From contig JAFQHZ010000006.1 in the NCBI GenBank assembly GCA_017415185.1, positions 62,001 through 126,000 of the forward strand: a stretch of 64,000 nt of DNA, read 5' to 3'. The position numbers were made by a program, and so were the translations under genes. The notes beneath the pieces were generated by a model that worked only from the letters and a program-made list of their open reading frames with translations, was not told the origin of the DNA and did no database searches. Positions 57,988 to 62,563 of the stretch are shown here, piece by piece. Every line of letters begins with the position of its first letter. Positions within the stretch are counted from its first letter, which is position 1. This DNA is from Candidatus Gastranaerophilales bacterium. GTDB lineage: Bacteria > Cyanobacteriota > Vampirovibrionia > Gastranaerophilales > Gastranaerophilaceae.

Positions 57988-59562
57988 ATGAATATAGTAT
58001 TAGCGCAATTAAACCCTATTCCTGCAGATATCGAATACAACAAAAATAAAATCATTGAAGCCCTTGATAACCAAGAATATGAGCTTATGATTTTTCCAAA
58101 ATATTTCATTTATGGCTATCATAATTTCGATATGATTGAAAAATTTTCCTTCATAAAAGAACAAATAGATAATGCTTTTAAAGAAATTCAAAAACATGTT
58201 AAAACAAATGCCCTTATAAGTTCTTTTGATGGGAATTATTTAATTAATCAAGAAGAAATTAAAAAAGTCGAAATTTTTACTTTAAATTTTGAATCTTTTG
58301 AAATAATCGAAAATGAACATCCAAAATTTGCAACAAGCAATTTAATTTATTTGGATTTATGCGCTTCAAAAACAAACAGCGAATATTATAGAAACGAAAA
58401 ACTTTATAAACTTGCAACTTCGCAAAATAAAAATTTATTCTATCTTAATCAAACAGGCGCAATTGATGAATTTGTTTATGATGGAATGAGCAGAATAATC
58501 GATTCAAAAGGAACTTTATTAGCGCAAGCTAAAGCATTTAATGAAGACTATTTAAAAAAAGGACGAATCGAAAAAAACGAATACAATTTTCCAACAAACC
58601 ACGATTCTTTTAGTTTGAATTACGAAAATGATTTAAAAAGAACATATTGTTCAATAGTTTTATCAATTAAAGACTATTTTTCAAAAAACGGCTTTACTCA
58701 AGCAGTTCTTGGCTTATCGGGAGGTCTTGATTCAACAATATGTGCTGTATTATTAGCAGACGCCTTAGGCAGCAAAAACGTCCTAGGTGTTTCAATGCCT
58801 TCTAGATTAACTTCAAATGAATCAAAATTTGATGGTTGCGAACTTGCGAAAAATTTAGGAATAAATTATATTGAAGCGCCCATCAAAGAATATCACGAAG
58901 CTTTTTCAATTGGGCTTGATAAAGTTTTTAATAAAGCTTCAAATTATTGGTGTAATAGATACACTAAATCATTCACTCAAGATAATATTCAAGCAAGAAG
59001 CAGAGCTATGATTTTGTGGGGAATTGCAAACGAATTCGGCTCAACCTTGCCAATTGCAACATCAGACAAATCAGAAACATATATGGGTTATGCTACGATT
59101 AATGGTGATATGTCTGGCGGCTTTGCGCCAATTCTTGATGTTACAAAAACAAAGCTTTTTGCGCTTGCTCGTTGGATGAACGAAAATCGACCAATAAAAA
59201 ATGCAATTCCAGAATCAATCATCCTAAAGCCTCCAGGAGCAGAGCTTGCAATCGATCCTAATACAGGTAAAACACTGAAAGCAGAAGATGCCCTTATGCC
59301 TTACGAATTTATGGACGAAGTCATTTGGAGAATAGAAAATCTTAATCAATCAATTGATAATATGATGCAAATTGAATTTTTATATGAGAAAAAGAATATA
59401 TTGGACGAAAAAACAAAAAAACTTTGGCTTGAAAAATTCTTCAAAAGAATGAACAGCGCAATCTACAAATGGTATATTTCAGCACCAAGCCCTATTGTTG
59501 ATAGTCATTCAATAAACAAAGCAATTTATAAGCAACCAATAGTTTCAAATATAAATTATTGA
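57988..59562 (+). CDS. nadE: NAD+ synthetase with degenerate glutaminase domain
   Basis: 524 residues. The C-terminal synthetase domain is intact: LGLSGGLDST (ATP loop at 244-249), SDKSETYMGYATINGDM and GGFAPILDVTKT. It amidates deamido-NAD. The N-terminal nitrilase-like domain is shortened to about 200 residues and has lost its triad: the Glu of FPE is K38 (FPKYF), the Lys-x-x-LPNY segment is missing, and the Cys of CEDxW aligns with I107 (EIIENEHP). It should not hydrolyse glutamine and probably uses free ammonia or a partner glutaminase. Confidence 0.9.
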   Translation: MNIVLAQLNPIPADIEYNKNKIIEALDNQEYELMIFPKYFIYGYHNFDMIEKFSFIKEQIDNAFKEIQKHVKTNALISSFDGNYLINQEEIKKVEIFTLNFESFEIIENEHPKFATSNLIYLDLCASKTNSEYYRNEKLYKLATSQNKNLFYLNQTGAIDEFVYDGMSRIIDSKGTLLAQAKAFNEDYLKKGRIEKNEYNFPTNHDSFSLNYENDLKRTYCSIVLSIKDYFSKNGFTQAVLGLSGGLDSTICAVLLADALGSKNVLGVSMPSRLTSNESKFDGCELAKNLGINYIEAPIKEYHEAFSIGLDKVFNKASNYWCNRYTKSFTQDNIQARSRAMILWGIANEFGSTLPIATSDKSETYMGYATINGDMSGGFAPILDVTKTKLFALARWMNENRPIKNAIPESIILKPPGAELAIDPNTGKTLKAEDALMPYEFMDEVIWRIENLNQSIDNMMQIEFLYEKKNILDEKTKKLWLEKFFKRMNSAIYKWYISAPSPIVDSHSINKAIYKQPIVSNINY

Positions 59563-59581: not shown

Positions 59582-60046
59582 ATGAAAAAAAGTTTACTAA
59601 CATTTGCGCTATGCTCTTTTGCATTTGGTTTAGGTTTTGGCATGAATAATATTGCATTTTCAAACGCAATGCCTGCTAGTGTTGCTTATGTTAATGTACC
59701 AAAGTTGCTAGAAGCTTCAAAAGTGCTTAAATCAGCACAAGATGCACAATTAAAGCAAACAAAAGACATGCTAAAATGGTATGATACTGCAAGCGCAGAC
59801 ATTCAAAAACAAACCACAAAAGCAGGCAAAGATGCGCTAATTAAAAAATATGAAGCGCAATTAACCCAAAAGAAAAAAACAATCAAAGATTCTTATTCAA
59901 AAAAAGTTACCCAAGTTGACAATCAATTAAATGAAATCATAACTTCAAAAGCTAAAGCCATGGGCTACACATTAGTATTGAGAAAGGATGCAGTCCTTTT
60001 TGGTGGCACAGATATCACATCTCAAATTTTGCCTTTAGTAAAATAA
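59582..60046 (+). CDS. OmpH/Skp-family periplasmic chaperone-like protein
   Basis: 154 residues: a signal peptide (MKKSLLTFALCSFAFGLGFG, with a cut near SNA), then VAYVNVPKLLEASKVLKSAQ, a long charged coiled coil, and the C-terminal AKAMGYTLVLRKDAVLFGGTDITSQIL. This is the OmpH/Skp layout. Skp holds unfolded outer-membrane proteins, so this supports a diderm envelope. It follows nadE by 19 bp with AAGGAGA. A clear terminator follows. Confidence 0.88.
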   Translation: MKKSLLTFALCSFAFGLGFGMNNIAFSNAMPASVAYVNVPKLLEASKVLKSAQDAQLKQTKDMLKWYDTASADIQKQTTKAGKDALIKKYEAQLTQKKKTIKDSYSKKVTQVDNQLNEIITSKAKAMGYTLVLRKDAVLFGGTDITSQILPLVK

Positions 60047-60115: not shown

Positions 60116-60316
60116 ATCTTTTAAAAAATAATTTATTAAATCGTCTAAATAACTTGTACCCATGCCCTAAAATTTATAGTAAAATAATTTAAATAAGAAA
60201 ATTAGTTTAAATAAAAAACCGAAGCATATTGACCATCGGCAAAAACAATTTTCGGAAGAATTATGAAGGCAAATACGGGAAATGCATTTGGGGAAGTGCA
60301 GTTTAGGAGGAATTTA

Positions 60317-62563
60317 ATGCAGAAGATTTCAAACGATATAAACACACAATCGCAAGCTCAGTCGCATAGCGTTGTGTCTGATGCCATTAAAGCCAGTGAA
60401 AACCATATTAATATAATTAACTTCTCAAGACGTAATTTAAGCAATGTTATCATTGTTAAAAAAGATGGAACAAAAGAAAAATACAATATTGAAAAAGTAG
60501 TTGAAGCTATTAAAAAATCTGCAACAAGAATGCTTGTTGAATTTTCAGACAAACAAATTAAAGACATTTGCGCATTTGTAAATAAATCTGTTTCCGATAT
60601 GAACAAAGACGAAGTTGCAATCGCTCAAATGCACAATATTGTTGAATCTGCCCTACAAGCGCTAAGCCCTGAAGTTGCTGAAAGTTATAGAAATTATAGA
60701 AACTATAAAACCGATTTTGTTCACATGCTTGATAAAGTTTATCAAGAATCACAAAGAATCATGTATATTGGCGACAAAGAAAACGCTAACGCTGATTCAA
60801 CATTAGTTTCAACAAAACGTTCATTAATTTTCAACGAATTAAACAAAGAATTATATAAAAAATTCTTTTTAACTGTTGAAGACAAACAAGCCATCAAAGA
60901 AGGATATATCTATATTCATGATATGTCAGCAAGAAGAGACACAATGAATTGCTGCTTGTTTGACGTTGCAACCGTTTTAAAAGGCGGTTTCGAAATGGGC
61001 AACATTTGGTATAACGAACCAAAAAGCCTAGACGTTGCTTTTGATGTTATTGGCGACATCGTTATGGCAGCGGCAAGCCAACAATACGGCGGCTTTACAG
61101 TTCCTGAAGTAGACAAAATTCTTGCTCCATACGCTCAAAAAACTTTTGAAAGACAATATGACAGATATATTTGCATGGGTCTTTCTTTTGAAAAAGCTAG
61201 AGAAGAAGCAATGAAAGATGTTCAATCTGATTATGAACAAGGCTTCCAAGGTTGGGAATATAAATTCAACACAGTTGCTTCAAGCCGTGGAGATTATCCA
61301 TTCATCACAGTAACCACTGGTCTTGGCACTGATGAATTTGAAAAAATGGCTTCAATGGCTTGCTTAAAAACTCGTTCTGGCGGACAAGGCAAAAAAGAAT
61401 GTAAAAAACCAGTATTATTCCCAAAAATTGTATTCTTATACGATGAAGAAATCCATGGCGAAGGCAAAATTTCTTATGATTTATTCCAAGCAGGCGTTGA
61501 ATGTTCTAAAAAAACAATGTATCCCGATTGGTTAAGTTTATCTGGAGAAGGCTACGTTGCTTCAATGTATAAAAAATATAAACGTGTAATTTCTCCAATG
61601 GGATGTCGTGCATTCTTGTCTCCTTGGTTTGAAAAAGGCGGCGCTGAGCCTGCTGATAGCGAAGATAAGCCAATCTTTGTTGGTCGTTTCAACATTGGCG
61701 CAATAAGCTTACACTTGCCAATGATTTATGCTAAAGCTAAACAAGAATCTAAAGATTTCTATGAAGTTTTAGATTACTATATGAATTTAATCAGAAAAAT
61801 CCATATAAGAACTTATGAATATCTTGGAGAAATGAGAGCGTCAGTTAATCCTCTTGCATATTGCGAAGGCGGTTTCTATGGCGGACATTTAAATCATAAT
61901 GACAAAATTAAACCATTATTAAAATCGGCAACTGCTTCCTTTGGAATTACTGCTCTTAATGAACTTCAAGAACTTCACAATGGCAAATCATTGGTTGAAG
62001 ACGGCGAATTTGCTCTTGAAGTAATGAGATATATCAATAAAAAAGTTGATGAATTCAAAAAAGAAGACGGCCATTTATATGCACTATACGGCACACCTGC
62101 TGAAAACTTATGCGGTCTTCAAGTAAAACAATTTAGAAAAAAATACGGCATAATTGGAGATGTTTCAGACAAACCTTATGTTTCTAATTCATTCCACTGC
62201 CATGTATCAGAACAAATCAGCCCAATCGAAAAACAAGATATCGAAGGAAGATTCTGGGATTTGATGAATGGCGGCAAAATCCAATATGTTAAATATCCAA
62301 TTTCATACAACACAAAAGCTGTTGAAACATTAATCAAACGTGCTATGAAAAAAGGATTCTATGAAGGGGTTAATCTTTCTTTATCATATTGTGATGATTG
62401 CGGACATCAAGAATTAAATATGGATGTTTGCCCAAAATGTGGCTCTAAAAACTTAACCAAAATCGACAGAATGAATGGCTATTTGGCTTATTCAAGAGTT
62501 AAAGGCGATTCTCGTTTGGCAGACCACAAAATGGAAGAAATTAAAGACAGAGTTTCTATGTAA
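60317..62563 (+). CDS. nrdD: anaerobic ribonucleoside-triphosphate reductase, class III
   Basis: 748 residues from the ATG at 60317, chosen over an ATG 54 bases upstream because AGGAGG lies six bases ahead. An N-terminal ATP-cone (about 40-125, IIVKKDGTKEKYNIEKV) precedes the catalytic barrel with MNCCLFDV. The C-terminus has a four-Cys zinc site (CDDCG and CPKCGS) and the glycyl-radical motif RMNGYLAYSR. It makes dNTPs without oxygen, indicating anaerobic growth. The activase gene nrdG is not adjacent and not in the window. Confidence 0.95.
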   Translation: MQKISNDINTQSQAQSHSVVSDAIKASENHINIINFSRRNLSNVIIVKKDGTKEKYNIEKVVEAIKKSATRMLVEFSDKQIKDICAFVNKSVSDMNKDEVAIAQMHNIVESALQALSPEVAESYRNYRNYKTDFVHMLDKVYQESQRIMYIGDKENANADSTLVSTKRSLIFNELNKELYKKFFLTVEDKQAIKEGYIYIHDMSARRDTMNCCLFDVATVLKGGFEMGNIWYNEPKSLDVAFDVIGDIVMAAASQQYGGFTVPEVDKILAPYAQKTFERQYDRYICMGLSFEKAREEAMKDVQSDYEQGFQGWEYKFNTVASSRGDYPFITVTTGLGTDEFEKMASMACLKTRSGGQGKKECKKPVLFPKIVFLYDEEIHGEGKISYDLFQAGVECSKKTMYPDWLSLSGEGYVASMYKKYKRVISPMGCRAFLSPWFEKGGAEPADSEDKPIFVGRFNIGAISLHLPMIYAKAKQESKDFYEVLDYYMNLIRKIHIRTYEYLGEMRASVNPLAYCEGGFYGGHLNHNDKIKPLLKSATASFGITALNELQELHNGKSLVEDGEFALEVMRYINKKVDEFKKEDGHLYALYGTPAENLCGLQVKQFRKKYGIIGDVSDKPYVSNSFHCHVSEQISPIEKQDIEGRFWDLMNGGKIQYVKYPISYNTKAVETLIKRAMKKGFYEGVNLSLSYCDDCGHQELNMDVCPKCGSKNLTKIDRMNGYLAYSRVKGDSRLADHKMEEIKDRVSM

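Follow-up and report, generated by a model that had tools for sequence, protein, structure and literature searches.

How does a NAD synthetase obtain its nitrogen when the glutaminase domain fused to it seems to have lost its catalytic residues? The question is raised by the nadE gene of a Candidatus Gastranaerophilales bacterium, probably a gut bacterium. The gene lies in a stretch of 64,000 nucleotides (assembly GCA_017415185.1, contig JAFQHZ010000006.1, positions 62,001 to 126,000; hereafter the window). A preliminary description of it, made from the letters alone, had proposed ammonia-dependent synthesis with the dead domain kept for structure, or else a partner glutaminase. The features that bear on this question are listed in Table 1.

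Table 1 Features of nadE and its neighbours in the window, and CarA of the same genome (G000; given as genome, contig and positions).
Feature	Position	Strand	Basis or remark
nadE, two-domain NAD synthetase with a putatively inactivated glutaminase half, 524 aa	57988..59562	+	ORF open
Nitrilase-fold glutaminase remnant, residues 1-212	57988..58623	+	Alignment and predicted model
K38 at the catalytic Glu position	58099..58101	+	Glu in five intact relatives, L003 and L007; Lys in L004 and L005
Junction of residues 94/95, 27 residues with the catalytic Lys missing	58267..58272	+	Corresponds to L011 residues 117-143, with Lys119
N109 at the nucleophile Cys column	58312..58314	+	Cys (Cys158 in L011) in L011, L013, L012, L009 and L024
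Junction of residues 111/112, 18 residues just behind the nucleophile missing	58318..58323	+	Alignment
C125	58360..58362	+	Ser in five intact relatives shown; Ser in L003, L004 and L005, Phe in L007
Synthetase half, residues 213-524, intact	58624..59559	+	Pfam/NCBIfam, model
PP-loop SGGLDS in the synthetase half	58717-58734	+	Sequence
C-terminal segment, extended	59464..59559	+	Kept in aligned remnant forms, shortened in single-domain L070
OmpH-like gene, conserved nadE neighbour in the genus	59582..60046	+	Pfam OmpH 32.2 bits, cut-off 32.4
nrdD, anaerobic ribonucleoside-triphosphate reductase, next conserved neighbour	60263..62563	+	Conserved in the genus
CarA of the window genome (L181/L208)	G000:C30:42960-44018	-	Nucleophile Cys to Ser, catalytic His to Asn

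Loss of the glutaminase triad

Pfam and NCBIfam searches assigned the C-terminal half of NadE to the NAD synthase family, with PF02540 (NAD_synthase) matching residues 222-464 at 173 bits, and the synthetase half is intact, as first described. The match of CN_hydrolase (PF00795) to residues 5-50 stayed below threshold (21.9 versus 23.2 bits). We aligned NadE with intact orthologues of the same genus, using L011 as the reference and showing five intact relatives (L011, L013, L012, L009 and L024). These orthologues, of about 600 residues, carry the patterns FPEL, IRKxLLxNY and ICEDxWND, and the Glu/Lys/Cys pattern of their profile aligns with that of the solved type-F enzyme 5kha. Two of the losses claimed from the sequence, the change of Glu to K38 and the absence of the segment with the catalytic Lys, which here is a 27-residue block after residue 94, agree with this alignment. 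The loss of the nucleophile Cys held as well, although its position did not: the replacement had been given as I107, and the column is that of N109, a difference of two residues in gap placement. Besides the 18 residues missing just behind the nucleophile, another 12 that the intact orthologues have are missing after residue 78. By this alignment NadE lacks all three catalytic residues, Glu, Lys and Cys.

The same loss is common to L003, L004, L005 and L007, which come from four other genomes and have Ile, Asn, Asn and Gly, respectively, at the nucleophile column. Because these four genomes share the loss, and their proteins form one clade with the window NadE, it is no accident of a single assembly. 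The catalytic Glu is still present in L003 and L007, and is gone as well in the window NadE, L004 and L005.

One could imagine that other residues still let the remnant hydrolyse glutamine. It has a cysteine nearby in the sequence, C125, which as a functional nucleophile would have refuted the preliminary description, and the predicted model described below keeps the nitrilase fold. This cysteine was rejected as a replacement nucleophile, since its position is occupied by Ser in the intact relatives and by Ser or Phe in L003, L004, L005 and L007. With Glu, Lys and Cys all gone, and the Lys block and the stretch behind the Cys deleted, we give residual hydrolysis hardly any credence.

Erosion in place within the genus

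We read the neighbourhood of nadE at 45 loci, 21 of the window's genus and 24 others. The OmpH-like gene lies behind nadE at all 21 genus loci (L100-L119 and L121), five of which carry a lost nadE (L100, L101, L102, L103 and L107). It is followed by nrdD at 19 of the 21; L103 ends too early, and L121 has no match. The window nadE thus occupies the same locus as the intact genus orthologues of about 600 residues, which marks the lost gene as orthologous to them, its glutaminase half eroded in place. The two neighbours were not found at the other 24 loci, whether NadE was lost or intact, and so the synteny speaks for erosion in place within the genus only.

Recurrent loss and graded forms among relatives

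To place this loss we collected 167 proteins from the same genus and order, of which 129 distinct ones were left after duplicates and contained sequences had been dropped. Cys is absent from the nucleophile column in 54 of the 129, a count that is not a frequency, because the sample was fetched by likeness to the window NadE, and eleven stretches were picked for their short look, which biases it towards lost forms. On a tree of the 129 proteins we counted 12 changes between the intact and lost states, seven of them forced by well-supported branches; this was a quick tree, built on the synthetase half only, in which several lost proteins sit on long branches. A 47-protein tree, made more carefully, gave five changes, four of them forced. 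Among the relatives sampled, the glutaminase was lost about 12 times on the larger tree. Kept outside the 129-protein tree were open-ended or split frames (L006/L067/L103, L039, L040, L098, L134, L175 and L178), a repeat fetch (L080) and the single-domain L070. One of these frames, that of the lost nadE of G015 (L006/L067/L103), is interrupted by an in-frame TAG within the synthetase half.

The window clade consists of five lost proteins, the window NadE, L003, L004, L005 and L007. A second group, clade B, is larger: its 26 proteins are 454-504 residues long and come from 15 genera of the family, all of them lost and all with open frames that contain no internal stop. Clade B was drawn from 30 genomes, chosen for weak matches plus a few others; the remaining four gave a single-domain form (G245), a split one (G206), an intact one (G082) and one weak match only (G293).

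The extent of the erosion differs among the lost proteins. At one end are nearly full-length forms with Gly at the Cys column, namely L162 (652 residues, with Glu and Lys present), L151 (640 residues) and L164 (613 residues). L026 keeps its Glu and, by column, its Lys, and the Cys stretch is absent. In clade B the remnant is reduced to its core, and in G245 NadE is a single-domain protein of 259 residues (L070), the frame upstream of which encodes an FtsQ-type POTRA domain. Since these forms belong to separate lineages, they represent kinds of intermediates and not one path. Two genomes hold both states, with assembly contamination possible in each: G006 has a lost and an intact nadE (L007 and L032), and in G233 an intact copy (G233:C27:50805-51620) accompanies the lost one (L055).

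Constraint and predicted fold of the remnant

We compared dN/dS between the two halves of the gene, with values that are rough because dS approaches or exceeds 1 in most pairs: for the window NadE against L003 they were 0.098 (95% 0.063-0.141) in the synthetase half and 0.336 (bootstrap 0.192-0.508) in the glutaminase half, for the glutaminase half of L004 against L005 0.194 (0.124-0.289), for that half in six intact pairs 0.07-0.12, for the remnant in seven clade-B pairs 0.065 to 0.305, and for the remnant in more distant lost pairs up to 0.625 (window against L007). The nitrilase remnant therefore appears, from these codon comparisons, to be under relaxed yet purifying selection.

These values also bear on whether nadE is decaying as a whole gene, the cell obtaining its NAD from elsewhere. 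The in-frame stop in the synthetase half of L006 in G015 is what one would expect of such decay, but the dN/dS of about 0.1 in the synthetase half is not, and the 26 lost clade-B proteins remain open without internal stop across 15 genera. Moreover, the window NadE is the only NAD synthase match in its genome (G000; 1.87 Mb, 97.5% complete). Given this constraint and the status of sole copy, we rejected whole-gene decay, for which we see next to no chance.

A structure of the window NadE was predicted from a 14-sequence alignment, in which three sequences were intact (pLDDT 79.3, pTM 0.81). The model matched the type-F NadE 3n05 with a Z score of 29.7 (2.4 Å over 439 residues), and its residues 1-192 matched nitrilase-family amidases with Z of about 21 (5jqn, Z 21.5, rmsd 2.1, 188 residues). 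Whole-chain superposition on the NadE of M. tuberculosis was poor, with an rmsd of about 20 Å. The remnant is thus predicted to retain its nitrilase fold. In type-F enzymes a C-terminal segment contacts the glutaminase domain, according to an extract of De Ingeniis and colleagues (PMC3376133). By alignment, this segment is present in the window NadE and its sisters and shortened in L070; the model has low confidence in it. Another interface element of type-F enzymes is the helix alpha18, and the model predicts a helix at residues 474-490. A remnant that is still docked would account for a C-terminal segment kept in the remnant forms and short in G245.

In an enzyme that uses ammonia, a remnant under purifying selection could also have a regulatory use, such as PII binding or feedback by NAD, in place of a structural one. 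There is precedent in a PII protein that relieves the NAD inhibition of a characterised NadE-Gln enzyme, as described in an extract of PMC7196632. Against this, the remnant is entirely gone from the 259-residue protein of G245 and hence dispensable in that lineage, and we hold a regulatory role to be improbable.

Search for a separate glutaminase

The alternative named at the outset is a partner in trans: the remnant would be the platform on which a separate glutaminase subunit docks, and the synthetase half would receive its ammonia from that subunit. At an E value of 0.001 we found no PF00795 protein in the window genome (97.5% complete assembly) and no PF00795 match in G015. In G003 and G009 the search returned their own NadE remnant only, and in G005 and G006 the NadE loci only. 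Given 20 genus genomes with intact NadE, this search detected the NadE glutaminase domain in all 20. Several NadE-lost genomes have a free-standing nitrilase of about 270-280 residues (G017, G033, G068 and G146 among others), including the closest sister genome, G017 (274 residues), so that the argument against a partner rests on G000, G015, G003 and G009. Separate nitrilases occur in the intact-NadE genomes G022, G028 and G034 too, however, and their presence therefore does not track the loss. A partner from the nitrilase family was accordingly not borne out in the window genome, and we consider it unlikely that a separate glutaminase, which might also be of another fold, acts in trans.

A second glutaminase, CarA, and the enzymes that are spared

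Searches identified three class-I glutaminases in the window genome: PyrG, CarA and HisH. In CarA, which is a separate frame from CarB in L181, both the nucleophile and the catalytic His are replaced (Table 1); their counterparts in E. coli, Cys-269 and His-353, are essential for glutamine hydrolysis, as stated in an extract of PMC6245113. We compared CarA among the 27 genus genomes with a full CarA, dropping G020 with its partial match only. Both residues are lost in five of the seven NadE-lost genomes (G000, G005, G006, G015 and G017) and in none of the 20 others. Of these, 18 have an intact NadE, G014 carries fragments of two nadE genes, and G026 gave no match to NadE. The replacements vary, with Ser or Gly for Cys and Asn, Asp, Tyr, Gln or Glu for His, and the CarA tree contains three changes, two of them forced. 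The association between the two losses gave a Fisher p of 2.6e-4 with kinship ignored; the CarA tree offers only one to two independent NadE/CarA pairs, for which a sign test is not significant, and for this reason the association in the genus is suggestive, not proven. Nor does NadE loss require CarA loss, since the NadE-lost genomes G003 and G009 of the genus, and G252, keep an intact CarA.

Outside the genus, 27 of 30 genomes had no CarA over the cut-off, with NadE intact or lost alike. The three with a full CarA all keep Cys and His; NadE is intact in two of them, G256 and G044, and lost in the third, G252. In G245 (L216, G245:C22:22986-23447 and around) a single frame of 1491 residues joins PyrF, the CarA N-terminal domain and CarB domains; in the 919 residues read, there is no glutaminase domain between the CarA N-terminal domain and CarB.

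Loss of all class-I glutamine amidotransferases can be ruled out. In PyrG, both Cys and His are present in 26 of the 28 NadE-lost genomes searched. Of the 30 PyrG frames read, 28 have both residues, and these come from 26 NadE-lost and two intact genomes, the exceptions being a second copy in G245 and a split frame in G334, of which only the first piece was read. HisH keeps both residues in G000, G005 and G006, the NadE-lost genus genomes in which it was found. No PyrG match was found in NadE-lost G015. The retention in PyrG indicates that the glutaminase losses are selective. In the second PyrG copy of G245 (L266, G245:C29:9123-9914) the nucleophile Cys is replaced by Ser (GISLGMQ), and an intact copy, L238, is present beside it.

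We also searched 40 genomes of the order for AmtB and found it in two. Its near absence would fit cells that have no need to scavenge ammonia, but it extends to genomes with intact NadE and does not discriminate between the two states.

A proposed shift from glutamine to ammonia

Ammonia-using natural versions are known for both NAD synthetase and carbamoyl-phosphate synthase, and ammonia in the gut is presumably high enough for such enzymes. Type-F NAD synthetases use free ammonia besides glutamine, according to extracts of PMC6946656 and PMC3376133, so that, given ample ammonia, an enzyme that has lost its glutaminase would still work, now dependent on ammonia. We think it probable that the window NadE is a former type-F enzyme that lost its glutaminase in place and now uses ammonia, with the remnant serving a structural role. 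From the missing triad, the intact synthetase half, the fold of the model, the purifying selection and the kept C-terminal segment, we infer ammonia as the donor and a structural part for the remnant; ammonia-rich surroundings would be the permissive condition. Of the readings first proposed for this gene, ammonia-dependent synthesis with a structural remnant is thus the best supported.

In this mechanism, the synthetase half would amidate NaAD with free ammonia. The nitrilase-like remnant would no longer hydrolyse glutamine but would still fold and pack on the synthetase half, and probably holds the oligomer and the active-site loops of the synthetase together. The need for packing and for a stable oligomer may preserve it until this is compensated; deletion could then follow, as in G245. 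A shift from glutamine to ammonia may have occurred repeatedly in Gastranaerophilales and reached carbamoyl-phosphate synthase in some genomes; CarAB of the window genome would then also take free ammonia, whereas CTP synthase and, where present, HisH would stay on glutamine. An extract of PMC6245113 weighs against the CarAB part, in that ammonia use by the E. coli enzyme needs very high concentrations that are likely physiologically irrelevant. On balance we lean towards the broader proposal that the order repeatedly converts amidotransferases to ammonia, first NadE and then, in some lineages, CarA: two unrelated glutaminase folds would be inactivated and in the end removed, with CTP synthase remaining on glutamine.

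Relation to known enzymes

With type-F NadE (Acinetobacter 5kha, Burkholderia 4f4h, Streptomyces 3n05 and the M. tuberculosis enzyme), the window NadE shares the domain order, the synthetase half, the C-terminal extension and, in the predicted model, the nitrilase fold. It differs in having no Glu, Lys or Cys and in the deletion of the Lys block and of the stretch behind the Cys. The C176A structures of M. tuberculosis NadE (3sez, 3szg, 3seq and 3sdb), which are among the structural matches of the model, also have the nucleophile removed, but by a single engineered change and not by natural erosion with deletions. With the single-domain type N enzymes of Salmonella and Methanocaldococcus, as an extract of PMC3376133 presents them, the window NadE would share the ammonia donor, and no glutaminase component was found in its genome; it differs from them in its two-domain ancestry, with a 212-residue remnant and the C-terminal segment kept. 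The protein of G245 has reached the single-domain architecture through domain loss. A separate nitrilase-family G-subunit, as in two-subunit type C/R NadE, was not found in the window genome (PF00795, E 0.001).

Vertebrate CPS1 is a known case of a glutaminase domain that is dead but retained: its Cys is changed to Ser, and ammonia is the donor (extract of PMC4655335). CarA of the window genome has the same change and additionally lacks the catalytic His. CPS1 is a different enzyme from NadE, and it has glutaminase-like and synthetase parts in one chain, whereas bacterial CarA is a separate subunit. In the open-licence papers that we searched, we found no report of a degenerate or dead NadE glutaminase domain, nothing on point on NadE, NAD, or glutamine, ammonia or carbamoyl in Melainabacteria or Gastranaerophilales, and nothing on point that joins an ammonia-dependent carbamoyl-phosphate synthase with NAD synthetase. 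If the broader proposal is true, this conversion of amidotransferases would be a natural bacterial counterpart of CPS1. The parallel decay of CarA suggests a changed nitrogen economy and not an accident of one gene, and offers a bacterial system to compare with CPS1.

In an extract of PMC3376133, the mosaic of one- and two-domain NadE is explained by gene transfer and gene loss, with no further fusion or fission. The relatives examined here suggest several losses, in place, of the glutaminase of fused NadE, with intermediates that still exist; if this is true, they form a step-by-step living series from fused glutamine-dependent to single-domain ammonia-dependent NadE. The same extract argues that living cells do use free ammonia as a nitrogen donor, which closely related genomes that differ in glutaminase state could be used to test. 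It also proposes interface motifs, including a C-terminal loop, for recognizing glutamine-using NadE; the C-terminal motif alone would misname the remnant forms. Annotation was likewise misled for CarA, in that the putatively dead protein passes the cut-off of a model named glutamine-hydrolyzing (380.8 versus 307.35 bits).
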